DNA from: a virus | DNA length: 36,660 bases | Direction: 5' to 3' (one strand) | IMG/VR virus record: IMGVR_UViG_3300030202_002186 | Span: 1 to 36,660 of that record | Notes under the pieces: model-generated | What the model was told of the DNA's origin: nothing | What the model saw: the letters and a program-made list of their open reading frames with translations, nothing else | Database searches by the model: none | Made by a program: the position numbers and the translations under genes | In this document: piece after piece, positions 3,392 to 27,415 of the stretch | Layout: each line of letters begins with the position of its first letter | Numbering within the stretch: position 1 is the stretch's first letter

Positions 3392-5296
3392 ATGGGACAA
3401 GCTGCACTTAAATACGACGAAGTCGATCAATTCGATAAAATCCCTATTCCAGAGGGCGGGATCGCCACGTTTTTGACCGCAAAGACTGGATCTTGGGCCG
3501 ATGACGATGATGACGTACCGCCCAAAGGTATTACCAACGTCGTGAAAATAGCCGACAAGTTGGCTAAATACGGTCGTAACGAAGACGAATACATGGTCCA
3601 CGCTGCTGAAGGCGAGACTGTGGTACCGATGGAAGTCTTCAACCAAAACCCCGCACTGAAAGACAAGCTTTTTGCAGAAATGCGCATCATGGGCATTGAG
3701 CCAGAGCGTTACGTTGTCGGTAACGAGCTTAACTCAATCAACCCTGTGACAGGGCAACCTGAATTCTTCTTAAAAAAGCTGTTCAAAGGCTTGAAGAAGA
3801 TTGTCAAAAAGATCCTGCCTGTTGTTGCAACAATAGGTCTGACCATGTTGGGTGTACCGCCGCCAATTGCTTCTGCGATTGTTTCGGGCGCACAAGTCGC
3901 CATTCAGGGCGGAAGTTTAAAGGACAGCTTAAAAGCAGCGGCCATAGGCGGTATTTCGAGCTTTGCCGCAGGTAAAATTGGTGACAAATACAATTGGGCT
4001 GCAAATGGTGCGAAACAAATGGCGACGCAGGCAGCTATCAACACCACGCTGTCGGGCGGTAAGCCAAAAGATATTTTAGCGAGTGCGGCCCTTGCGGGCG
4101 TTACGACGAAAGGCATGGACTTCCTTGGAGGCAAGCTTGCCCCCGCAGGAGCAGAAGCCACGGCGACGGTAGATCCTGCATACGCAAAAGAGTTGGCTGC
4201 GACTAATCCCGCAGAGCTTGCTCGACTGCAAGGAATAGAAGGCGTAACAGTTCTCGAAACGCCAGATTTTGCTCCGTCTGGTTTCCAAGCTTTAGGGAGC
4301 ATGCCCGCCAAAGTTGCACCGGTTGATGCAACGGCTCCGGCAGGTGGCGTAGGAACTCAAGTAAGCGGAGCAGTCGGAGCAATCGGTCCTGTTGCCTCAC
4401 AACCTGCACAAGTATATGACCCCTTTACTGGGCAAATGATCGCAGATGCTAGACAACCGGTCCAAGGAGTAGGCACCAGAGCAGGCACCGGAGCAGATGC
4501 CAGTGTCGACACAACTGCCGCAGGGGGACAAAAAGTTGATTTTGAGGCGAAGCTAGCGGATTTTCAGGGAGAACAGATACGCCCAGTTGGCGAAGCATTC
4601 AAAGAAGTTTTTACCGGCGGTGGACGTGGATTTCAAGGCCGTTTAGAAGCTTTCGGCGACCTATTCCTGCCGAATTACAACAAGGGCGAATTGAACGATC
4701 TACTGAGGGACTTGAAAAAACAAGATCCTGCTGGATTTGCGTCAGAGTTCGGCGACGTATCAATAAGCAATGCTGCGAGTCAATTTTTGAAAAGTAACCC
4801 TGTCAGTTTCCAACGCAAATTTGGTCCGGCGGGTGTCGCTTTATTAGCGGGAAGCGCGTTATTTCCCGGCGAAGACGTAGAACTCACCGATTTAAGCACC
4901 TTGCCCTCCGGTTTTGATCTTGTAGACGCAAACCCGGAGCGGTACAGAGTTTTTTACGGGGACGATCCGATACGCATGGCACCGTCTTTTGGCATCACTC
5001 GCGCAGCAGGTGCGTATCAACCCACACCGCAGCAAAGTTTTTTTGAGCCTACGGATATTGACACCAGTTTGCCTCCGCTTGGAGCAGCGGACGGGGGCGA
5101 AATTATGAATTTTCCGCGCATGAACGGGCCGATTGAGGGGCCGGGCACGGAGACTTCTGATGACATACCCGCCATGCTGTCGGACGGAGAATTTGTATTT
5201 ACAGCAAAAGCTGTCCGTGGTGCCGGTCGGGGTAGTCGAGAAGATGGTATGCGCAACATGTACAACATGATGCGTCAATTTGAGGCTAAAGTCTGA
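3392..5296 (+). CDS. large virion protein with tape-measure/ejection-like features
   Basis: A 634-residue protein. The N-terminal region includes HAAEGETVVPMEVFNQNP, and residues 125-215 contain a basic stretch (FLKKLFKGLKKIVKKILP) leading into a hydrophobic, Gly/Ala-rich segment (VATIGLTMLGVPPPIASAIV) that could insert in membrane. The middle is Ala/Pro/Gly-rich and probably disordered. The C-terminus holds IPAMLSDGEFVFTAKAVRG, a short motif seen in many marine phage tape-measure or internal virion proteins. It overlaps the next gene by one base. The basic-plus-hydrophobic segment would suit a protein injected through the cell envelope, but that is inference; enzymatic motifs were not seen. 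Confidence 0.65.
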   Translation: MGQAALKYDEVDQFDKIPIPEGGIATFLTAKTGSWADDDDDVPPKGITNVVKIADKLAKYGRNEDEYMVHAAEGETVVPMEVFNQNPALKDKLFAEMRIMGIEPERYVVGNELNSINPVTGQPEFFLKKLFKGLKKIVKKILPVVATIGLTMLGVPPPIASAIVSGAQVAIQGGSLKDSLKAAAIGGISSFAAGKIGDKYNWAANGAKQMATQAAINTTLSGGKPKDILASAALAGVTTKGMDFLGGKLAPAGAEATATVDPAYAKELAATNPAELARLQGIEGVTVLETPDFAPSGFQALGSMPAKVAPVDATAPAGGVGTQVSGAVGAIGPVASQPAQVYDPFTGQMIADARQPVQGVGTRAGTGADASVDTTAAGGQKVDFEAKLADFQGEQIRPVGEAFKEVFTGGGRGFQGRLEAFGDLFLPNYNKGELNDLLRDLKKQDPAGFASEFGDVSISNAASQFLKSNPVSFQRKFGPAGVALLAGSALFPGEDVELTDLSTLPSGFDLVDANPERYRVFYGDDPIRMAPSFGITRAAGAYQPTPQQSFFEPTDIDTSLPPLGAADGGEIMNFPRMNGPIEGPGTETSDDIPAMLSDGEFVFTAKAVRGAGRGSREDGMRNMYNMMRQFEAKV

Positions 5297-7275
5297 TGGC
5301 AGAAAACGTACAACAAACAGTCTATCAACGTGAAGCCCCAGAAATTGAGGCTTATAAAGTTGCCCGGATGCAGGACGCTTTGCGTTATGTGCAGGAGTTA
5401 CAACGCCAAGGCATAACACCACCCGCGCAAACAATTGCGGGTTTGACCAGCGAACAACAGGCTGCTGGCGATTTAATCAGGTCAGGAGTAGGCAGTTACG
5501 CGCCTTTTCTTCAAGGTGGTCTGGACGCAAACCAAGCAGCGCAGGGCATGATATCGGATACAGCTATGCCCTTTATCCAAGAGTCGTATGGTCAGCAACT
5601 GGAGGGCATTGCGGATCTTGGGCAAGCCAGAGACTTAGCACTCGGCCAAATGCAAGACGCATATCAGTATCGTGACGCCGCTATGCAAGGGTTTTCTGAC
5701 GCTAGTGCGGGTATCGGACAAGCTAGGGAGGGTGTTGGTGGCCAAGTATCTGCCGCCCAACAGGGCATTGGTCGCGCGGATCAATTAGGTCAAGAAGCCG
5801 CCCAGTTCGGGCAACAAGGATTGACTGACGCTGCGCGTAGCTCAATGCCAGCAAGCCGACGCGCACAAACGGAGGCTATTCGTTCAGGGCGGCAAGCCGG
5901 TCGTATTTCCGGCCAAGGCAGGCAAGGTATCCAAGATGCCGCAGGCGGTATTGCCGGGCAAATTAGTGGTGCTCAACAAGGATTAGGACAAGCTACTCGT
6001 CGTGCTAGACGGGAAGTTGGTGGTGCTCAACAAGATTTGGCTAGAGCGGGAGCGATGGGCCGCTCAACCGCTAGACGAGGTATCGCGCAGTTGGCAGGCA
6101 GTGCAGATCAATTTGACCCCAGTGGCATTGGCGCGTTTATGGACCCCTTCACCCGCGACGTCATTGAGGCAGAGCAGGCAGAAATAGCGCGTCTCGGTGA
6201 AAAACAAAAGATGGACGCGAGAGCGCAGCAAGCAAAAGCAGGAGCTTTTGGTGGCTCTCGGGGTGCTATCGCAGAAGCGGAAATCGGTCGTAATGTTTTG
6301 GAACAGCAAGCACGGACCGGAGCGCAATTAAGCTCTCAAGGTTATCAGCAAGCGGCTCAACAAGCTCAACAAGCTTTTGAGGCAGCAAAAGGGCGACAAC
6401 AGCAGGGTGCTCAACTTACGGGACAATTAGGTCAAGCGGGTGCGGCAACGGGCCTACAAGCAGCCTCACAGGCAGGGCAGCTAGGACTAAGCGCAGAACA
6501 ATTAGCTCAACGAGGCGCAGGTCAAGCAGGACAGTTGGGTTTGCAAGGACAAATGTCTCAAGCGCAATTAGCAGAAAATGCAGCAAAATTGGGCATTTCC
6601 ACAGAGCAACTACAAGCACAACTCGCGGCTCAAGGTGCGCAAACGGCGCAAAACCAAGCCAAATTAGGTATGGACGCTGCCGGACAAGGTGCGCAGTTAG
6701 GCATGGGCGCAGCGCAACTGGGTCAGCGAGGGGCTATCGCAGGCGGTCAGTTAGGATTATCTGGTCAAGAAGCAATGGCTCAAATGTCGGGACAGCAAGC
6801 AAACGTTGCGCAACTGGGTGGTCAGATGGGGCTACAATACGGACAATTGGGTCAAGCAAACGTGGCTCAACTAGCCGATCTGGCGCAGCAGCGAGGCGCT
6901 ATGGGGCAAGGTATTGCGGGTCTTGCAAATCAAACCGGAGCTTTAGCGGGGCAGTTAGGAAGTCTGGGCGGTCAACAAGTCCAAATGGGTGCGCAAGGTC
7001 AAGCAATGCGTGGTCAGGACATTAACCAGTTGATGCAATTCGGCGGAATGAACCAACAACAAGCACAAAACGTCTTAAACGCACAATTTGCAGCGGATCA
7101 GGCGGCATACCAAGCTCCGTTCCAACAAATGGCGTTCCTCACCGACACTGCTTCTGGGCTACCGTCCTCTCAATACTCAATCACGCAACAACAATCCTCT
7201 AGCCCCGGCTTTGCTCAAACAGCCGCTGGTCTGGGAATGGGCGTCGCCGGTCTGAACAGAGCAGGAGTCATTTGA
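5296..7275 (+). CDS. Gln/Ala/Gly-rich repetitive virion (ejection-type) protein
   Basis: A 659-residue protein dominated by Gln, Ala and Gly. After a helical N-terminus (about residues 1-70) it has long helix-forming repeats such as GQLGLSAEQLAQRGAGQAG with a roughly 11-residue rhythm, suggesting extended alpha-helical coiled structure. A segment KAGAFGGSRGAIAEAEIG (about residues 314-331) matches a phrase recurrent in marine phage virion proteins. Length and composition suit an internal virion or tape-measure protein released with DNA. It overlaps both neighbours by one base (TGATG at 7273-7277), so it is coupled within the operon. No catalytic motif is visible. Confidence 0.65.
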   Translation: MAENVQQTVYQREAPEIEAYKVARMQDALRYVQELQRQGITPPAQTIAGLTSEQQAAGDLIRSGVGSYAPFLQGGLDANQAAQGMISDTAMPFIQESYGQQLEGIADLGQARDLALGQMQDAYQYRDAAMQGFSDASAGIGQAREGVGGQVSAAQQGIGRADQLGQEAAQFGQQGLTDAARSSMPASRRAQTEAIRSGRQAGRISGQGRQGIQDAAGGIAGQISGAQQGLGQATRRARREVGGAQQDLARAGAMGRSTARRGIAQLAGSADQFDPSGIGAFMDPFTRDVIEAEQAEIARLGEKQKMDARAQQAKAGAFGGSRGAIAEAEIGRNVLEQQARTGAQLSSQGYQQAAQQAQQAFEAAKGRQQQGAQLTGQLGQAGAATGLQAASQAGQLGLSAEQLAQRGAGQAGQLGLQGQMSQAQLAENAAKLGISTEQLQAQLAAQGAQTAQNQAKLGMDAAGQGAQLGMGAAQLGQRGAIAGGQLGLSGQEAMAQMSGQQANVAQLGGQMGLQYGQLGQANVAQLADLAQQRGAMGQGIAGLANQTGALAGQLGSLGGQQVQMGAQGQAMRGQDINQLMQFGGMNQQQAQNVLNAQFAADQAAYQAPFQQMAFLTDTASGLPSSQYSITQQQSSSPGFAQTAAGLGMGVAGLNRAGVI

Positions 7276-16398: not shown

Positions 16399-17934
16399 AT
16401 GAACATTCGCAAATTTGCACAGATTTTTGATGGTCTGAAGCAGGCGCACGGCACGTTCACGATTGAGTCGAAGTCAAGCAGTGGCAAGACTCAAGGCAAA
16501 GCGAACGTAGTACGCGAAGCACGGACCAAAGAACATTGGGAAAGACACCTAGCGGGTCAGCAATCCATTGGGATTATTCCAATCAATGAAGACAATGCAT
16601 GCCGCTGGGGCTGCATTGACATCGATCAATATAACTTTGATCACAAGGCGCTAATCGACAAGATCCAAGCGGCAAAGCTACCGCTGGTGGTGTGCCGATC
16701 TAAGTCGGGCGGTGCTCACGTATTTTTATTCACAGATGAATTTATTCCTGCCAAGGACATGCAGGACGTGCTGACACAGTTGAGCGCGGGCCTTGGCTAT
16801 GGCGGCAGTGAGATCTTTCCCAAACAGATCAGCTTAAACCTAGAGCGTGGCGACGTCGGCAACTTTCTGAACATGCCGTACTTCGATCACGAAAACGGCC
16901 TGCGGTACGGGTTCAACCCTGACGGTACAGCAGCCACGTTTGATGAATTCCTTGAGCTTGTTGACCACAACGTACAGACGCACGAACAGGCACTGGCTTT
17001 GGTGGTGGAGCAAGATGCCGCACTGCCCATACCGGACGGTCCGCCTTGTCTACAGATCTTATGTAAAGAAGGCATCGGTGAAGGCGCAAGAAACAACGGA
17101 CTTTTTAATCTTGGGGTATACCTGCGCAAGGCACACCCGGAGACGTGGGAGTCAGAGATCCTGACTCACAACATGAATTTCATTCATCCACCTTTACCGC
17201 TGGGTGAAGTCAACACGGTTGCCAAGCAGCTAGAGCGTAAGGATTACGCCTACAAGTGCCGTGATGCCCCGATCAATGCGTACTGCAACCCAGAGCTTTG
17301 CAAGACGCGTAAGTTTGGTATCGATGCAGCTACCTCTGGCGTGCAGATAGCCAACCTGCGCAAGTACAACAGTGTGCCACCCGTGTGGTTCTTGGACGTT
17401 CAAGGCAAACCCCTAGAGCTTGCGACCGACGATCTGATGGTTCAGTCGGCCTTCCAGAAGGCGTGTGTCGATCAGTTGAACTTCTTCCCAAGGACTGTGC
17501 AAAAGGCGCAGTGGGAGCAGCGTATCAATGCTCTGCTCAATGAGATGAGTGACACCGAAGGTCACGTCATAGAAGTAAGCCAAGACGTCAGCGTAAACGG
17601 GCAGTTCGCCGATCACTTGGAAGAGTTCTGTACAGGTCATCAGGCTGCGGATGAGAAGGAGCAGATCTTGCTCAAGCGGCCATGGACAGATGAGGACCAG
17701 AAAGAAACGTACTTCAGGCTGAAAGATCTAGAAGCCCACCTCATCAAAGCGAACTTCAAGGTCTACAAAACACATCAAATCGCGCAACGTTTGCGGGACG
17801 TGAACGGTGAGGCCACTCAATTGCGCATACAGGGTAAAGTGATACGGTTATGGAAGATCCCTGCGCACGAGCAGGCCATAAGTCGTATAGAGCCGCCCAG
17901 CTTCGGGGGCACTGAAGAGGAGATACCGTTTTGA
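16399..17934 (+). CDS. AEP-superfamily primase
   Basis: A 511-residue protein with the archaeo-eukaryotic primase signature: CIDIDQY gives the metal-binding Asp74-x-Asp76, and SKSGGAHVFLF supplies His107 of the sxH motif. These are followed by FPKQ and GNFLNMPYF segments typical of phage AEP primases. A Cys cluster (YKCRDAPINAYCNPELCKT, about residues 290-310) looks like a zinc-binding element of the C-terminal half. It should synthesise primers for the phage PolA and may also extend them, as some AEPs are primase-polymerases. It precedes the UvrD helicase in the same operon, overlapping the intervening small gene by 4 bases. Confidence 0.85.
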   Translation: MNIRKFAQIFDGLKQAHGTFTIESKSSSGKTQGKANVVREARTKEHWERHLAGQQSIGIIPINEDNACRWGCIDIDQYNFDHKALIDKIQAAKLPLVVCRSKSGGAHVFLFTDEFIPAKDMQDVLTQLSAGLGYGGSEIFPKQISLNLERGDVGNFLNMPYFDHENGLRYGFNPDGTAATFDEFLELVDHNVQTHEQALALVVEQDAALPIPDGPPCLQILCKEGIGEGARNNGLFNLGVYLRKAHPETWESEILTHNMNFIHPPLPLGEVNTVAKQLERKDYAYKCRDAPINAYCNPELCKTRKFGIDAATSGVQIANLRKYNSVPPVWFLDVQGKPLELATDDLMVQSAFQKACVDQLNFFPRTVQKAQWEQRINALLNEMSDTEGHVIEVSQDVSVNGQFADHLEEFCTGHQAADEKEQILLKRPWTDEDQKETYFRLKDLEAHLIKANFKVYKTHQIAQRLRDVNGEATQLRIQGKVIRLWKIPAHEQAISRIEPPSFGGTEEEIPF

Positions 17935-19723: not shown

Positions 19724-19959
19724 GCGATATGGTCAACTCACCGAGCCACTATGCTGACTCAGAGATTGAATGCATCGATGCCATGGTCGCGGCTTTCGGT
19801 ACAGAGGCCGTGCAGATGTACTGTCGTTTAGCTAGCTTCAAGTACCAATGGCGGGCCGGAAAAAAGTTCGATGCGGTTGAAGATTTAAAAAAATCTATTT
19901 GGTATACGCGTTTTGCGCTGGGCGATGACCCAAGGAAAGACGATGCAAAAGGAAACTAG
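19720..19959 (+). CDS. DUF3310 (SaV-like) protein
   Basis: A 79-residue protein with the family opening VNSPSHYADSEIECIDAM and the following YCRLASFKYQWRAGKKFD..EDLKKSIWY, matching DUF3310, a small protein common in phage replication or nucleotide-metabolism regions. The function is not established. It starts at an ATG overlapping the helicase stop (ATGA), and its 3' end overlaps the PolA start by 17 bases in another frame. This tight placement argues that its production is tied to the helicase-polymerase pair. Confidence 0.88.
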   Translation: MSDMVNSPSHYADSEIECIDAMVAAFGTEAVQMYCRLASFKYQWRAGKKFDAVEDLKKSIWYTRFALGDDPRKDDAKGN

Positions 19960-21850
19960 GTTACAGTTCCCGTTGTTTGCGACCGAAACAGAGTGGACGG
20001 CACCTTACGAGTTTGTTGACCTGACAGACGCCAAAGAGATTGCCATTGACCTAGAAACACGTGACCCCAACCTCAAGCAGATGGGTCCGGGCTGGCCCCG
20101 CAAGGACGGCGACGTTGTTGGCATAGCGGTCGCTACTGAGGGCTTTGAAGCCTACTACCCTATTGATCACCTTGGTGGTGGTAATCTCGACAAGCGGCAG
20201 GTGCTGCGTTGGCTAGCCAAGCAGTTATCCACAGACTGCCCAAAGATCATGCACAACGCACCCTACGATCTGGGCTGGCTCAAGGCGCTCGACGTGCCGG
20301 TAAACGGCCCGATCATCGATACGATGGTGATGGCGGCGCTGCTCGACGAAAATCGTTTCAGTTACTCTCTGAACGCTCTGTCATACGACTATCTGGGCCT
20401 AGCCAAGTCAGAGAAGCTTCTGACGCAGGCTGCGGTAGAGTTTGGGGTAGACCCCAAGGGCGAGCTTTGGAAGCTCCCTGCGCAGTTTGTGGGGCCGTAT
20501 GCAGAGCAAGACGCACGGCTGGCCTACGATCTGTACAAGTTTTTCCGCGTAGAAATCAACAAGCAGGACCTAGAAACCATCTTCGATCTCGAAACACGGC
20601 TCACGCCCTGCCTGATCGACATGACGTTTCGCGGAATACGGGTAGATCTAGAGCGATGTGAGCGGTCGAAGCAACAACTTTTAAAAAGAGAGAAGCAGAC
20701 CTACCGGGAAATCAACAAAGAAGCAGGCTTTGACGTCGAGATCTGGGCGGCAACTTCTCTAGCCAAAGCATTCGACAAGCTAAAAGTTGCCTATCCCCGA
20801 ACGGCCAAGGGCGCACCGTCTTTCACCAAGGCATTTTTGAGCGAGAACCCGCATCCGTTTGCCAAAATGATCATCGAGGCACGAAACCTCAACAAGATCC
20901 AAGGCACGTTTATCAACAACATAATGAAGTTTGTGGGCGCTGACTCTCGTATCCACGGGCACATCAATCAGCTACGCAGCGATGACGGAGGCACTGTCTC
21001 CGGACGCCTGTCTATGTCGAACCCAAACCTTCAGCAGATTCCTGCTCGCGATCCAGAGCTAGGACCTATGATTCGCAGCCTGTTCCTGCCGGAAGAGGGA
21101 GAACTGTGGGCTGCTATAGACTACTCGCAGCAAGAACCACGGATCTTGACCCACTACGCCAGCGTTTTTGGCAAGTGGAAAGGTCTGCCGCTGGGTGGAG
21201 CGAAAGAATTTGTCGACGGGTACACCAATGACCCAGACATGGACTTTCATACCATGGTTGCCGACATGGCAAACATCAGCCGCAAACAGGCGAAGACGAT
21301 CAATCTAGGCATGATGTACGGCATGGGCGTGCGCAAGCTGGCTGACCAACTGGATCTGGAGTTTGATGACGCCAAAGAACTGACGCAGCAGTACCACAAG
21401 CGGGTGCCGTTTGTGAAAGAGCTAATGAACGGCGTATCGCGGTCCGTGGATCAAAAGTCAGACGGGTCACTGCGATCTTTGAAAGGCCGCAAGTGTCGGT
21501 TCGATATGTTTGAACCGATGGGCTACGACGTGCAGAAAGCCATGCCTTTGAAGGAAGCAAAGGCTACCTACGGCGAGACTGCACCACTCAAGCGTGCATA
21601 CACCTACAAGGCGCTAAACAGGCTGATACAGGCATCTGCGGCGGACATGACCAAGCAGGCCATGGTCGATCTGTACGAGGCTGGAGAACGCCCCTTGTTG
21701 CAGGTGCATGATGAGCTAGGGTGCAGCGTGGCCAACATAGAGCATGCCAAGAAAATACGTGAAGTCATGGAAGCTGCGATCAAGCTTCAGGTGCCGAGCA
21801 AATGCGACATTGACCTTGGGCCAAGTTGGGGAGAAACTAGCGAAATATAA
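19943..21850 (+). CDS. polA: family A DNA polymerase with 3'-5' exonuclease
   Basis: About 635 residues from ATG 19943, preceded by AAGGA; an upstream in-frame start at 19913 would lack a good ribosome site. The exonuclease domain shows DLET (Asp36, Glu38), MHNAPYDLGWL and YAEQDARLAYDLY. The polymerase domain shows motif A AAIDYSQQEPRIL (about residue 390), motif B RKQAKTINLGMMYGMG and motif C QVHDELG (about 588). There is no 5'-nuclease domain. In motif B the residue equivalent to E. coli Phe762 is Leu455. This enzyme should copy the phage genome. It is last in the replication operon. In virioplankton surveys, Leu at this site has been linked with slower, possibly temperate phages. Confidence 0.96.
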   Translation: MQKETRLQFPLFATETEWTAPYEFVDLTDAKEIAIDLETRDPNLKQMGPGWPRKDGDVVGIAVATEGFEAYYPIDHLGGGNLDKRQVLRWLAKQLSTDCPKIMHNAPYDLGWLKALDVPVNGPIIDTMVMAALLDENRFSYSLNALSYDYLGLAKSEKLLTQAAVEFGVDPKGELWKLPAQFVGPYAEQDARLAYDLYKFFRVEINKQDLETIFDLETRLTPCLIDMTFRGIRVDLERCERSKQQLLKREKQTYREINKEAGFDVEIWAATSLAKAFDKLKVAYPRTAKGAPSFTKAFLSENPHPFAKMIIEARNLNKIQGTFINNIMKFVGADSRIHGHINQLRSDDGGTVSGRLSMSNPNLQQIPARDPELGPMIRSLFLPEEGELWAAIDYSQQEPRILTHYASVFGKWKGLPLGGAKEFVDGYTNDPDMDFHTMVADMANISRKQAKTINLGMMYGMGVRKLADQLDLEFDDAKELTQQYHKRVPFVKELMNGVSRSVDQKSDGSLRSLKGRKCRFDMFEPMGYDVQKAMPLKEAKATYGETAPLKRAYTYKALNRLIQASAADMTKQAMVDLYEAGERPLLQVHDELGCSVANIEHAKKIREVMEAAIKLQVPSKCDIDLGPSWGETSEI

Positions 21851-21869: not shown

Positions 21870-22820
21870 ATGTTTGGACCTGCAATGGGTGGTATGGGCG
21901 GCGGATTTGGCCAGCAAGGCGGATTTGGCCAGCAAGGCGGATTTAGGGGACAACAACAAATGTCGCCTTTCGGGCAGCCCATGAATCGACAGCCGATGGG
22001 GGGCTTTGGTCAACAACCCCAACAATTTGGTGGGGGCTTTCCGCAACCCCAACAGCAGTTTGGCGGGGGCTTTCAGCAACCTATGCGACAGCCAATGCAG
22101 CAGTTTGGTGGGGGCTTCGGTGGGGGCTTTCAAGGACAGGGCGGATTTGGGCAACAACCTCAACAGCAATTCGGAGGTGGTTTTCAAGGACAAGGCGGAT
22201 TTGGGCAACCTCAACAACAATTTGGCGGGGGCTTCGGTGGCGGTTTTCAGCAAATGCCTCAACAGCAATTTGGCGGGGGCTTTCAAGGACAAGGCGGCTT
22301 CGGCGGCATGATGGGCGGCTTCGGCGGTCCTGCGGCAGCCCAGCAACAAGCAATGCAGAGGATGATGGGCGGTATGGGCGGCGGTCAAATGGGCCAGTTC
22401 GGTGGTGGGTTTCAATCCCAAGGCCCACAAGATTTAAGGCAAATACGGCAACGACAAAGCGATGCCATGTTTGATCGTCAAGGCCGTGGTGGCCGGGGTA
22501 ATCAAGGTCAAGACATGAAGATTGATATAGATCAATTTCAAGCAAAGCCATCACCTCCTGTGGCAATGAACCAAAGAGATATGACCAGACTGCAAGGTCG
22601 TGGATTCGGCGGTGGGTTTCAATCCCAAGGACCACAAGATTTAAGGGGAATGCAGGCACGACAAATCGATTCCATGTTTCAATCTCAAGGGCCACGAAAC
22701 ATGCGACAAATGACTGCGATGCCTCAACTGTCGCGAGGTATTGGCGGGTTTGGAGGGCAACGCGGACTTGCGCAAGGCAGGTTTTCTAACCTCCAAGACG
22801 CAATGAGAACTTTTCGATAA
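21870..22820 (+). CDS. Phe-Gly/Gln-rich low-complexity protein
   Basis: A 316-residue protein unlike its neighbours. Residues 1-150 are built almost wholly of Gly, Gln, Phe, Met and Pro in imperfect repeats such as QQFGGGFQGQGGFGQ. The C-terminal half is more mixed but repeats GGGFQSQGPQDLR, with related RQ/SMF phrases, two to three times, and contains Arg-rich spacers. There is no transmembrane, enzyme or folded-domain motif. The composition resembles FG-repeat or prion-like disordered proteins that form condensates or gels; such a role here is inference. It follows PolA after a 19-base gap carrying a hairpin over its ribosome site. A structural or coat-associated role is the main alternative. 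Confidence 0.75.
   Translation: MFGPAMGGMGGGFGQQGGFGQQGGFRGQQQMSPFGQPMNRQPMGGFGQQPQQFGGGFPQPQQQFGGGFQQPMRQPMQQFGGGFGGGFQGQGGFGQQPQQQFGGGFQGQGGFGQPQQQFGGGFGGGFQQMPQQQFGGGFQGQGGFGGMMGGFGGPAAAQQQAMQRMMGGMGGGQMGQFGGGFQSQGPQDLRQIRQRQSDAMFDRQGRGGRGNQGQDMKIDIDQFQAKPSPPVAMNQRDMTRLQGRGFGGGFQSQGPQDLRGMQARQIDSMFQSQGPRNMRQMTAMPQLSRGIGGFGGQRGLAQGRFSNLQDAMRTFR
21901..21947 (+). repeat. 18-bp tandem repeat in the low-complexity gene
   Basis: GCGGATTTGGCCAGCAAG is repeated exactly at 21901-21918 and 21919-21936, with a diverging third copy from 21937. It encodes GFGQQG units. The exact identity at DNA level suggests recent slippage or duplication. Confidence 0.85.
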
Positions 22821-23028: not shown

Positions 23029-23233
23029 ATAAAAACCGCCTGCGCAGTTCCAACCGACAGCAGTTGATTGTTGTCATCCATTCTTTTGATTTTTCTTCTG
23101 ATGCATCAGGGTATGCAACCAACAGCGACGAGGTGTCCAGTAGCTTTTTCTGGATGTCGCTGATCTTTTCTTCTTTCGCCAGTTCTTCAAGAACTTTCGT
23201 TGTGAACGTTTTACCTACTTCACCCGCTGCCAA
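22997..23233 (-). CDS. small unknown protein, last gene of minus operon
   Basis: Encodes 78 residues from a TTG start (23233) with GGAGG about nine bases upstream, overlapping the previous gene by 14 bases. The sequence is helical and charged, ending in a basic tail (RRRFLSKRSRVR), and shows no recognised family. Its 3' end overlaps the convergent RHH gene by 32 bases. The TTG start and basic C-terminus make it less certain than its neighbours; it could be a non-essential accessory protein. Confidence 0.5.
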   Translation of the reverse strand: MAAGEVGKTFTTKVLEELAKEEKISDIQKKLLDTSSLLVAYPDASEEKSKEWMTTINCCRLELRRRFLSKRSRVRAPL

Positions 23234-23453
23234 GTTGTAGTGCCTCCAGTTTTTGTTCGACGGATGTCCATGTGTCTTTGATGCACTGCTCTTCGGTCTT
23301 GCTATGGCTATGGAACCAGAAGCATGTACCGATCAAGCCGTGAATCCTTGGATCGTCCTTGGAACTTTTTAAAAGTCTGAGCAAGAACAGCCCTTCGTCG
23401 GGGGACAGATTAAGGGAAAGGGTTGCTTCTTCAATTTCTGTCACTTCTGTCAT
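23220..23453 (-). CDS. small unknown protein, minus operon
   Basis: A 77-residue acidic protein starting at ATG 23453, with GAGG about nine bases upstream and a GATAAT -10-like hexamer in the same leader. LSLNLSPDEGLFLLRLLKSS and HSKTEEQCIKDTWTSVEQKLEAL suggest a mainly helical fold. No family is recognised. It follows a structured 237-base intergenic stretch holding three repeated hairpin-prone units, and overlaps the next gene by 14 bases. Confidence 0.6.
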   Translation of the reverse strand: MTEVTEIEEATLSLNLSPDEGLFLLRLLKSSKDDPRIHGLIGTCFWFHSHSKTEEQCIKDTWTSVEQKLEALQLGSG

Positions 23454-23472
23454 ATAGATTATCCTCTAGAAA

Positions 23473-23650
23473 AGCCCCGCCTTTGGGCACCCGGACGGGA
23501 ACGGGCAAGGAGAGAGTGTGTTTATCTCTCTGCCCAATTTAGCCCGCCTTCTGGCACGCGGACGGGAACGCGCGTTTCAGGGCTGGAGTGCCCTTGCCAA
23601 AACAGTGCCGTCTTGTGGGCACGCGGACGGCGCGCGCTTGGAGCGGAGTG
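23473..23650. repeat. three imperfect 65-bp structured repeats (noncoding)
   Basis: Units at about 23473, 23542 and 23606 share the core GGCACGCGGACGGGAACG (with variation) and end in GGAGTG-like tails about 30 bases later. Each can fold: GTGCC/GGCAC and GCCGTC/GACGGC in the third, GCCC/GGGC in the first, CCGC/GCGG in the second. They fill most of the gap 23454-23690 inside the minus operon. No T-tract or open frame is convincing. They could be RNA structures between the two halves of the operon or protein-binding DNA repeats; spacing of 69 and 64 bases rules out a CRISPR-like regularity. Confidence 0.7.
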
Positions 23651-23690
23651 ATAACCGCATCCCAAACTGGTTTGCCCCAGAGCATATCAA

Positions 23691-24206
23691 TTATTTTGTC
23701 CTAACCGGAACCACCGATTGCAGTTCTACATCAAAATCGAATTTGCAGGAGGCCAGCGACTCAAGCTTCTTACGCAGTTTATTCAACCGCCCTTCTTGCC
23801 CATACAGAGCGCGGTAAGTGGGGTTGCTGACCGCATAATCTCCCGTTTGAGCCTCAAAACGTTGGTAATCCTCTCTGATGTCCATCGAAGTCGTGGTCAA
23901 CAGATCCAACAAAATTGCAATATCGTCGTTGTTCAACGCCGTGATGTTCGCGGTGCGCGGCTCTTCGTTGTCGCGCGGCTCTTCGTTGTCGCGCAAGAAC
24001 GTCCGCACGCGGTCCACGGTGCGCTCTGAGGGCCTTTTGATCGTGCCAAACACGAAACCCTTCATGGTGGCGTAGTCAACGCCTACCGCTTTAGAAACCG
24101 CTTTGATGCCCCCAGTAATCTTACTGCCAGATTTCTCCGCTGCGTCTACTGCAAGGGCGTTCATTTGTGTCTGCATCTCGTGCAGCTTTAAGTTATTTAC
24201 TGTCAT
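23691..24206 (-). CDS. HTH-like putative regulator, minus operon
   Basis: Encodes 171 residues from ATG 24206, immediately after the shared ribosome cassette GGAGATAGTGATG; an ATG four codons upstream belongs to that leader. Residues about 30-75 (KITGGIKAVSKAVGVDYATM through RPSERTVDRVRTFLRD) look like a helix-turn-helix or small phage regulator fold, and a long charged helix follows. A tandem duplication gives RDNEEPRDNEEP at residues 72-83. It overlaps the previous gene by 14 bases. A transcriptional role is inferred from the HTH pattern. Confidence 0.6.
   Translation of the reverse strand: MTVNNLKLHEMQTQMNALAVDAAEKSGSKITGGIKAVSKAVGVDYATMKGFVFGTIKRPSERTVDRVRTFLRDNEEPRDNEEPRTANITALNNDDIAILLDLLTTTSMDIREDYQRFEAQTGDYAVSNPTYRALYGQEGRLNKLRKKLESLASCKFDFDVELQSVVPVRTK
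23955..23994 (-). repeat. 18-bp tandem duplication in the HTH-like gene
   Basis: The unit GCGCGGCTCTTCGTTGTC is repeated twice exactly, with a partial third copy, adding a second RDNEEP to the protein in frame. Exact identity points to recent slippage. Confidence 0.85.
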
Positions 24207-24414
24207 CACTATCTCCAATGCCTAAAAATTTTAAGGTTGCTTTGAACTTTAAAAAGTTCACGGTGTTTACCGGCAACATCGCAGTCAAATTGCTGATGAT
24301 GTCATCCAGTTCTTCGCGCTCACTCTTTGTTTTGTTCGGCAGCAGACGCATCACCAGCCCCTGATACAGGGCTTCTTCTGCGCTTTCGGGGTTTTTGTCC
24401 ATGCTGTAGTTCAT
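24193..24414 (-). CDS. small unknown protein overlapping its upstream gene
   Basis: A 73-residue acidic, helical protein. Its ATG (24414) follows the recurrent ribosome cassette GGAGAAAGTGA exactly, which strongly supports translation from here. No family is recognised. Its first 95 bases lie inside the 3' end of the previous gene in another frame, while its own 3' end overlaps the HTH-like gene by 14 bases. It may be a phage accessory or counter-defence protein, but this is not shown. Confidence 0.6.
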   Translation of the reverse strand: MNYSMDKNPESAEEALYQGLVMRLLPNKTKSEREELDDIISNLTAMLPVNTVNFLKFKATLKFLGIGDSDDSK

Positions 24415-24541
24415 TCACTTTCTCCAACAGGGTTTCCATTTGCTGTTCCATTACAGACAGCCGCTCATCAAGACCAAGAAGCAGCGTTACCACTCGCTCC
24501 GCTTCTTCTTGATCAAAGATTATTGTCAGTTCGCCTTTCAC
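24320..24541 (-). CDS. small coiled-coil protein with basic C-terminus
   Basis: About 73 residues from GTG 24541, which overlaps the upstream TGA as GTGA and suggests coupled translation; a longer TTG start at 24586 is possible. The protein has TIIFDQEEAERVVTLLLG, then a coiled-coil stretch LSVMEQQMETLLEKVNELQ, then a Lys/Arg-rich segment QKPRKRRRSP. No family is known to me. The last 95 bases overlap the next gene in a different frame, so one of the two coding claims deserves caution; the ribosome cassette favours the other gene. Confidence 0.5.
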   Translation of the reverse strand: MKGELTIIFDQEEAERVVTLLLGLDERLSVMEQQMETLLEKVNELQHGQKPRKRRRSPVSGAGDASAAEQNKE

Positions 24542-25020
24542 GATGGCGACGCTATTGTTTGCACATCGACCACATGGTCTGACCAACTGGAGTCGTCTCG
24601 CGCTTTACGGATTGCTTCCTGCTCTGTCTTAGCAGTGACACCCCTGACGACGCTGGTCTGAACGATGGTCACGTCCCATTGCTTGGCGCTGGACGCCAAT
24701 CCGGTGACTGCGATTCGGGTGTGCTCGCTGCCGTTCCAGTCGACTTCCAAGCCCGCTTCGCGGATCGTGTCGCAAATAGTATGACCAAATTTTTCTCCGA
24801 CTTTGCCGCCCCACGCCAGATAGCAAACGCCAGCATCTTTCAAATTCTCCGCGTCTTGCATGTGATAAAAAACGTAAGCCATTTCTTTGTCTTCGGGGAT
24901 CTCCGACAGCCCGCAGGACTGACAGCACGTGTGGTTGGCCTTGGCAAAGAACCCCTTATCGCGGAGCGCGGCAAACGCTAAGTCAATACGACGTGCGATT
25001 TTCTTGGCGTCTTTGTGCAT
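24538..25020 (-). CDS. Cys-motif protein (DUF6891-like), first gene of minus operon
   Basis: Encodes 160 residues from ATG 25020, placed just after the shared GGAGAAAGTGAAA cassette; an apparent TTG start upstream is inside that leader. The protein carries CCQSCG (Cys32, 33, 36), a phrase like that of the DUF6891 family, then YVFYHMQDAENLKDAGVCYLAWGG. The cysteines could bind metal. It leads the minus-strand operon of six overlapping genes and faces the divergent promoter region shared with the gene at 25098. The family link is from memory of the motif; function is unknown. Confidence 0.6.
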   Translation of the reverse strand: MHKDAKKIARRIDLAFAALRDKGFFAKANHTCCQSCGLSEIPEDKEMAYVFYHMQDAENLKDAGVCYLAWGGKVGEKFGHTICDTIREAGLEVDWNGSEHTRIAVTGLASSAKQWDVTIVQTSVVRGVTAKTEQEAIRKARDDSSWSDHVVDVQTIASPS

Positions 25021-25040
25021 TTTCACTTTCTCCAAAAAGC

Positions 25041-27061: not shown

Positions 27062-27070
27062 GGCGCGTAA

Positions 27071-27084
27071 CGCCGTTCGCGGCG
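27071..27084 (+). terminator. UUCG-loop hairpin after the MKLY pair
   Basis: CGCCG (27071-27075), TTCG, CGGCG (27080-27084), ten bases after the stop. It is the third UUCG hairpin in this small-gene cluster and has no T-tract. Confidence 0.55.
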
Positions 27085-27091
27085 CTTGGTG

Positions 27092-27335
27092 CAAAAAACG
27101 CGCTTCTATATAGTACTTTCCCAGAAAAAATATTTTTTGAAAAAACAATTTCAAAAATGGCGGTACAGGCGGTACGGTGGTACAGCCCTTATAGGACGGG
27201 GCCTGTAGCCGTACCGGCAGCGTACCACCGTGTTTAGAGCCGTTACGGGCTAAACCAAAAAACGCGTAACTGCATAGGAGTTTTCCGGAAAAATTTTTTT
27301 TATCTTTTTTGTTTTGCTGAAAAAGTACTATATAG
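27092..27335. other. origin-like noncoding block (AT-rich, iterons, long inverted repeats)
   Basis: The gap 27062-27415 has no convincing gene. CTATATAGTACTTT (27106-27119) and its exact inverse (27322-27335) flank about 200 bases. Inside are AT-rich tracts (27121-27158, 27281-27320) and a core with GGTAC at 27162, 27171 and 27179, opposed by GTACC at 27211 and 27222, plus an exact 10-bp dyad (27174-27183 / 27222-27231). CAAAAAACGCG is repeated at 27092 and 27256. Iterons beside AT-rich DNA are typical of replication origins; a regulator array is the alternative. Confidence 0.6.
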
Positions 27336-27415
27336 GAACCCGAATTAAGGAATGGGGTATTGACAGTGCGCGTGACCGTACTGTTAGGCTGCGAGAAATC
27401 GCATAGGAATTCGAT

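Follow-up and report, generated by a model that had tools for sequence, protein, structure and literature searches.

A conserved iteron block in a group of marine phages, a putative replication origin whose repeat word covaries with one residue of an AEP-TOTE primase

The virus record IMGVR_UViG_3300030202_002186 is a 36.7-kb linear contig which was analysed over its whole length of 36,660 nucleotides (hereafter the window). Comparison with the related contigs G001, G002 and G003 (54–58 kb) showed that the window is part of a phage genome, in which a replication module is followed by accessory genes, by terS and TerL, and then by structural genes. The replication module encodes an SNF2-type helicase, the protein p2378, a gp34-like protein, an AEP-TOTE primase of 511 amino acids (16399..17934, plus strand), a UvrD-type helicase and a family A DNA polymerase (19913..21850, plus strand; Pfam DNA_pol_A). 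The terminase small subunit was recognised by a PHROG match at 31409..31963 on the plus strand. Based on primase and polymerase, the nearest named phages are DSL-LC04, 023Pt_psg01 and the pelagiphages HTVC023P and HTVC027P, all of them below 60% identity. Directly 3' of the polymerase gene (21870-22820), a 316-aa ORF displays Gly-Gly-Phe/Gln-rich repeats (GGFGQQ). Further downstream (23030-25040), three reverse-strand ORFs (23691-24218, 24320-24586 and 24538-25035) lie inside the forward-coding region; with homologues of 87, 81 and 56% in contig G004, they are probably real genes.

Between the replication module and terS lies a non-coding block (27062..27415, no strand assigned), a putative replication origin with a promoter at its downstream end. 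From left to right, it starts with an outward-reading outer box (27099..27129, minus strand), of which CTATATAG is the core conserved in alignments of near relatives and which holds the exact 14-bp CTATATAGTACTTT at 27106-27119. An A/T-rich tract (27120..27159), also present in the blocks of relatives that were read, directly abuts three direct GGTAC iterons (27162-27166, 27171-27175 and 27179-27183, plus strand), which are opposed by two inverted iterons GTACC (27211-27215 and 27222-27226, minus strand). Repeat listing and alignments revealed a middle box, CTGCATAGGAGTTTTC (27270..27285, minus strand), which is a degenerate copy of the left box. It faces the right outer box (27312..27342, plus strand, with the exact AAAGTACTATATAG at 27322-27335) over a second A/T-rich tract (27286..27321). 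A conserved promoter-like element of the sigma-70 type, TTGACA-N16-TGTTAG (27360..27387, plus strand), closes the block on the right and is expected to drive the rightward genes; it was found in 29 of 29 relatives from the families of the window and of contig L036.

The exact repeats CTATATAGTACTTT and AAAGTACTATATAG are separated by 202 bases and belong to 31-nt arms which are 81% complementary. In addition, the block contains a 10-bp dyad (27174-27183 / 27222-27231) and two copies of CAAAAAACGCG, at 27092 and 27256, each within a 46-nt direct repeat of 76% identity. All the elements listed in a preliminary description of this locus (14-bp inverted repeats about 200 bases apart, AT-rich tracts, three GGTAC in 22 bases against two GTACC, a 10-bp dyad and a duplicated sequence) were thus recovered, with the AT-rich tracts flanking the iterons. 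It had overlooked that the outer box occurs a third time in degenerate form, that a promoter is present at the right-hand end of the block, and that most relatives carry the block directly before terS. First-order Markov shuffles of the block produced an exact inverted repeat of at least 14 bp in 0.2% of cases and three GGTAC within 22 bp in 0.02%; when the whole window was shuffled 200 times, the latter never appeared. No further copy of the 14-bp repeat was detected in the window with up to two mismatches. The CTATATAG boxes were considered as promoters of a phage RNA polymerase and rejected, as the window holds no other good copy and no phage RNA polymerase was recognised.

Far better evidence for the block than the shuffles is its conservation. 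In contigs fetched via the neighbouring GP88 gene, blastn revealed blocks that are 80–93% identical over their length, while the genes flanking them often differ. Pattern scans of viral contigs and a polymerase-based sample delivered 226 distinct block cores from a large group of marine phages. A search of the block or its relatives against named phages by blastn gave nothing. The elements are arranged as follows: a left CTATATAG box, an A/T tract, three direct iterons 8–10 bp apart, a spacer of 30–60 bp, then usually two inverted iterons, a middle box, an A/T tract and a right box, with the outer CTATATAG boxes facing outward. These outer boxes are a second conserved element of the block. Wherever terS was present on the contig (188 distinct blocks), the block is located upstream of it on the same strand, and in 161 of the 188 the distance is below 500 bp. 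The window is a minority case, with accessory genes filling 4.2 kb between block and terS. Looser analogues of the block were seen in HTVC023P and DSL-LC04, and no recognisable block was found near terS in HTVC027P and 023Pt_psg01.

The complementary arms could suggest that the block acts as a hairpin, either in RNA or in extruded DNA, and that the uniform words merely keep the arms complementary. Indeed, the block folds better than its shuffles (z -4.8 to -6.4), and left and right words remain complementary. However, the pairing of the outer arms is lost in many near relatives, where alignments show GTAC on the left and GTTC on the right, a search of Rfam with the block gave no match, and pairing explains neither the three uniform direct copies nor the covariation with a primase residue described below. 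A structured RNA or hairpin is therefore barely conceivable as the function of the block.

The five-base word of the iterons differs among close relatives. While the window carries GGTAC, the words GGGAC, GGGAT, GTAAC, GTTAC and GGAAC were found in related phages. Within a block the word is highly uniform: among 51 blocks that had not been selected by word, 50 contained three identical direct copies (7% would be expected if the copies were drawn independently), and an inverted copy of that word was present at least once in 50 and at least twice in 46. Mixed words were encountered in L041, in the hybrid L102 and in L058. In L102 (around 4123, minus strand), three GGGAC on the left are combined with two GTACC on the right, as in a natural or assembly recombinant of two word types. 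A word that is constant inside each block and changes from block to block argues for a single cognate binder which changes along with it.

A packaging site was considered as one explanation, with TerS binding to the repeats beside its own gene and starting DNA packaging from a pac or cos site. Pac and cos sites usually include repeated binding sites close to terS, and the universal position of the block upstream of terS (188/188) would fit. The TerS sequences argue against it, as contigs G001 (GGGAC) and G002 (GGTAC), whose replication proteins are 96–99% identical, share a 100% identical TerS, as do L091 (GTAAC) and L094 (GTTAC). Across the TerS alignment the best column reached a score of only 0.18 (same measure as for the primase below), which is not the pattern of repeats recognised by TerS. 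A cos site is further contradicted by G001 and G003, whose assemblies run through the block and are opened at different positions, indicating that the block is not a fixed end. Taken together, TerS was rejected as reader of the iterons, and a pac or cos function is considered very unlikely. The small genes next to the block (A125 and an ORF of 327–380 aa) were discarded as well, since A125 proteins of 96–97% identity occur with both GGTAC (L167, L186) and GGGAC. In G001 (47772-48914) and G003 (5123-6106), block-side proteins are variable towards the N-terminus and conserved at the C-terminus (..SPKPHRRRGYWRTLSHPRY..), possibly an exchangeable module.

A clear signal was obtained for the primase. 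In aligned primases of block-carrying contigs, the column of the window residue Q474 (codon 17818..17820, plus strand) tracks the iteron word and ranked at the top of 498 columns, with a normalised mutual information of 0.65 against 0.36 for the next column and a median of 0.09, row L392 being mis-oriented in this data set. In a second sample, composed of contigs holding both block and primase and with the orientation corrected, the same column reached 0.81. The best columns of the other core proteins scored 0.25 (PolA), 0.32 (gp34), 0.35 (UvrD), 0.40 (p2378) and 0.47 (SNF2), although the sizes of these control samples differ (19–155) and make the scores only roughly comparable.

Among 53 non-redundant pairs of word and residue, the GG words were found as GGTAC with Q (10 pairs), GGGAC with Q (2) and GGAAC with K (2), and the GT words as GTAAC with V (18) or S (3) and GTTAC with L (17). 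The residue thus fits the word in 52 of the 53 pairs, with a single GTTAC-V pair as exception. With respect to the second base alone, guanine goes along with Q or K in 14/14 pairs and thymine with V, L or S in 39/39. Such a pairing of Q/K with guanine and of V/L/S/A with thymine would be chemically sensible. The strand of the word was checked against that of the primase and agreed in 51 cases; L418 and L392 were corrected, and 20 pairs located in separate loci were not comparable in this manner. In the exceptional case (L473/L231, contig G018, V with GTTAC), the block lies within about 150 bp of the contig end, and an assembly switch at that end is a possible cause.

On a primase tree calculated without the C-terminal domain, the word changed 14 times and the residue 15 times. 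Independent pairs on well-supported branches amounted to about 5:0 for GTTAC/GTAAC with L/not-L and 4:0 for GG words with Q, none being against, each sign test alone being too small for the 0.05 level (medians 0.06 and 0.125). A Fisher test on the pair counts (4e-13) ignores relatedness and should not stand alone. From the tree, word and residue appear to have switched together repeatedly. A natural pair differing by one residue in the winged helix is given by L478 (V, GTAAC) and L467 (L, GTTAC). Two predictions were stated beforehand: V was expected in the primase of the L216 contig (L216/L474; GTAAC), and Q in that of the GGGAT group (L047; sister contigs with 99.8% identical PolA); V and Q, respectively, were found. 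Of the seven PolA contigs entered in a blind test, L058 alone extended as far as terS. Its primase has A at the key column and its block a mixed GTTAC/GTGAC array; the word had been predicted only as one not yet seen, and it fits the rule of V/L/S/A with thymine at base 2. From this covariation we conclude that the iterons are most probably binding sites of the primase.

Domain analysis of the primase revealed an AEP domain (40-165), a PriCT-1 domain (223-276) and a predicted C-terminal winged helix (approximately 398-495). The AEP-TOTE family (PF22548) was detected in 34 of 34 primase members, while PriCT-1 (PF08708) scored above the cut-off in the window primase and was found in 22 of 34 members at E<=0.01. 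In AlphaFold models, the wing of the winged helix is a beta-hairpin of residues 471-488 (17809..17862, plus strand), and residue 474 is located in its first strand (471-477), the confidence of the winged-helix model being moderate (pLDDT 72–88 by block). Structural comparison matched the AEP part to the CRISPR-associated Prim-Pol (CAPP) with Z 21, and the winged helix best to TcpK, with Z 7.8 for both the whole model and the domain alone, and with Foldseek rank 1. With a Z under 8, the latter could merely reflect a shared common fold, and homology is not claimed. A search of PDB sequences with the primase profile gave no real match, and no paper on TOTE primases in phage replication was found in a literature search. 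The absence of ColE2 Rep among the structural matches listed for either model says little.

TcpK is known to read tandem GGAACTTTA boxes with a winged helix, placing the beta-wing into the major groove (PMC6137059). The word GGAAC within these boxes of the pCW3 oriT is also one of the phage iteron types, and residue 474 is likewise situated in the wing. In contrast to the phage primase, TcpK is a stand-alone accessory protein of the relaxosome at a transfer origin, and, at a modest structural match, the sequence identity is about 13%. Winged helices of mobile-element primases have been proposed as origin readers (PMC5862659).

The closest functional parallel is offered by the Rep proteins of plasmids ColE2 and ColE3. 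ColE2 Rep is an origin-binding AEP primase which needs DNA polymerase I (PMC4538821), and, as cited in PMC5862659, it unwinds the origin with its PriCT-1 and HTH domains. Both Rep proteins bind specifically to their origin and prime there, and DNA polymerase I extends the primer (PMC4538821, PMC5862659, PMC5304414). The phage primase has the same combination of an AEP domain, PriCT-1 and a C-terminal HTH, and the phage encodes its own polymerase A. In contrast, the origin of ColE2 is among the smallest known and has no iteron array, whereas the phage block takes up approximately 250 bp, in which A/T tracts and outer boxes accompany five iterons, three of them direct and two inverted; moreover, the AEP domain of the phage is of the TOTE type, and the gene context differs (phage genomes of 55–58 kb). 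As the AEP domain, PriCT-1 and the C-terminal HTH or winged helix were all found, and the small, iteron-less origin was not, the phage system is described as probably working like ColE2, and not as ColE2-type.

In iteron origins of plasmids and lambdoid phages (see PMC4980987), the initiator binds to tandem short repeats next to A/T-rich DNA. Like the origins of RK2 or those recognised by lambda O, the phage block has tandem short repeats adjoining A/T-rich DNA, and A/T tracts were present on both sides of the iterons in the blocks that were read, as expected for the unwinding region of iteron origins. Unlike these systems, the phage block has 5-bp iterons that occur in both orientations, the presumed binder is the primase itself, and no DnaA or helicase-loader step is evident. 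SV40 and papilloma-type origins display central direct and inverted pentanucleotides with A/T-rich flanks; their likeness to the phage block is an analogy of layout only.

The position of replication start was approached by nucleotide skew. Raw GC skew was abandoned as origin marker, as it follows the coding strand, and the analysis was moved to fourfold sites. The minimum of the detrended cumulative skew was found 0.5–5 kb from the block in six of seven genomes (G001 0.5, G002 2.2, G003 2.5, G004 5.0, the window 5.1 and G007 4.5 kb), while in G006 it was not near the block. In the window and in G004, the minimum at about 5 kb is nearer to terS. The range of the skew was clearly beyond that of shuffles only in G001, G002, G003 and G007, the first three being close relatives. 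The skew test suggested in the preliminary description gives the origin weak support, as chance could still account for the range in some of the genomes.

A different reading of the same data is that the block serves transcriptional control only, the primase binding as an early protein to the iterons as an operator that times the terS/late operon or the accessory genes, with replication starting elsewhere. The constant location before terS on the same strand (188/188) and the promoter following the block in 29/29 relatives of two families speak for it. On the other hand, the covarying protein is a primase and not a regulator, the distance from the iterons to the downstream promoter is about 180 bp, the TTGACA promoter was not seen in terS-adjacent blocks of the G001 type, and the long A/T tracts and dyad layout are needless for an operator and typical of origins. 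A purely regulatory block is thus regarded as unlikely. Counting against an origin, the block is locked to terS and not to the primase gene, and it could therefore serve late expression or packaging. As the outer boxes sit between the replication genes and terS, a link to late transcription or packaging is plausible; the block could have such a role in addition to replication, and the outer boxes could be a packaging signal.

Altogether, the origin function proposed in the preliminary description from iterons and AT-rich flanks was strengthened by the covariation of the iteron word with one wing residue of the primase, nothing comparable being seen in other core proteins. The block is likely to be the replication origin of the phage, used by the primase as initiator in a way similar to ColE2. 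Physical binding, melting, priming and the start of replication at the block are inferred from these comparisons. In a first step, well supported by indirect evidence, the C-terminal winged helix would bind each 5-bp iteron, wing residue 474 recognising bases 2 and 3 of G-K-N-A-C. Several primase molecules would then be loaded in opposing orientations by the direct and inverted iterons, the A/T tracts on either side would melt, and PriCT-1 and the winged helix may hold the opened strands, as for ColE2 Rep. Finally, the AEP domain would make a primer at the block, which the family A polymerase of the phage would be expected to extend, possibly helped by the UvrD- and SNF2-type helicases. With less assurance, though still on the favourable side, we propose that the wing residue sets the required origin word, Q/K specifying G and V/L/S/A specifying T at base 2, and, at base 3, V specifying A and L specifying T. 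Switches of this code would have been frequent, with all five iterons changing together, and closely related co-occurring phages would have mutually exclusive origins, in analogy to plasmid incompatibility groups.

To our knowledge, the replication origin has been established in few uncultured phages. In the present case, a candidate origin, its probable reader protein and the residue likely to set specificity were all obtained from sequence alone for a large group of marine phages. AEP-TOTE primases, which up to now have been little more than a domain name, are linked to a concrete, if putative, task as initiator. The natural series of matched protein and DNA variants may help to understand how origin specificity evolves and whether co-infecting phages are kept separate, and the block offers a sequence mark for finding the probable origin in hundreds of metagenomic phage genomes.

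Several observations were made at related loci. L175 and L492/L495 carry variant blocks, in which iteron copies are added or rearranged over a longer stretch; in L495, a phage contig in a MAG with V at the key column, GTAAC words follow an A-tract in a looser layout. The isolate phage DSL-LC04 (L187, 20540-20840) has 36-nt inverted repeats (83%) upstream of terS together with degenerate GTRAN repeats; its primase carries S at the key column, making it a possible test phage. A GC-rich non-coding stretch with many GATCCGCG/CCGATC-like repeats precedes terS in the window (31000-31375), and AAAGTGCTATATTT at 31361, after these repeats, is a weak copy of the outer box; a weak outer box before terS was also noticed in G004, L036 and L042. 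Contigs L492, L493 and L494 of the phage group were binned in MAGs of Pirellulaceae, Maricaulis and Flavobacteriaceae, and these mixed hosts suggest mis-binning.
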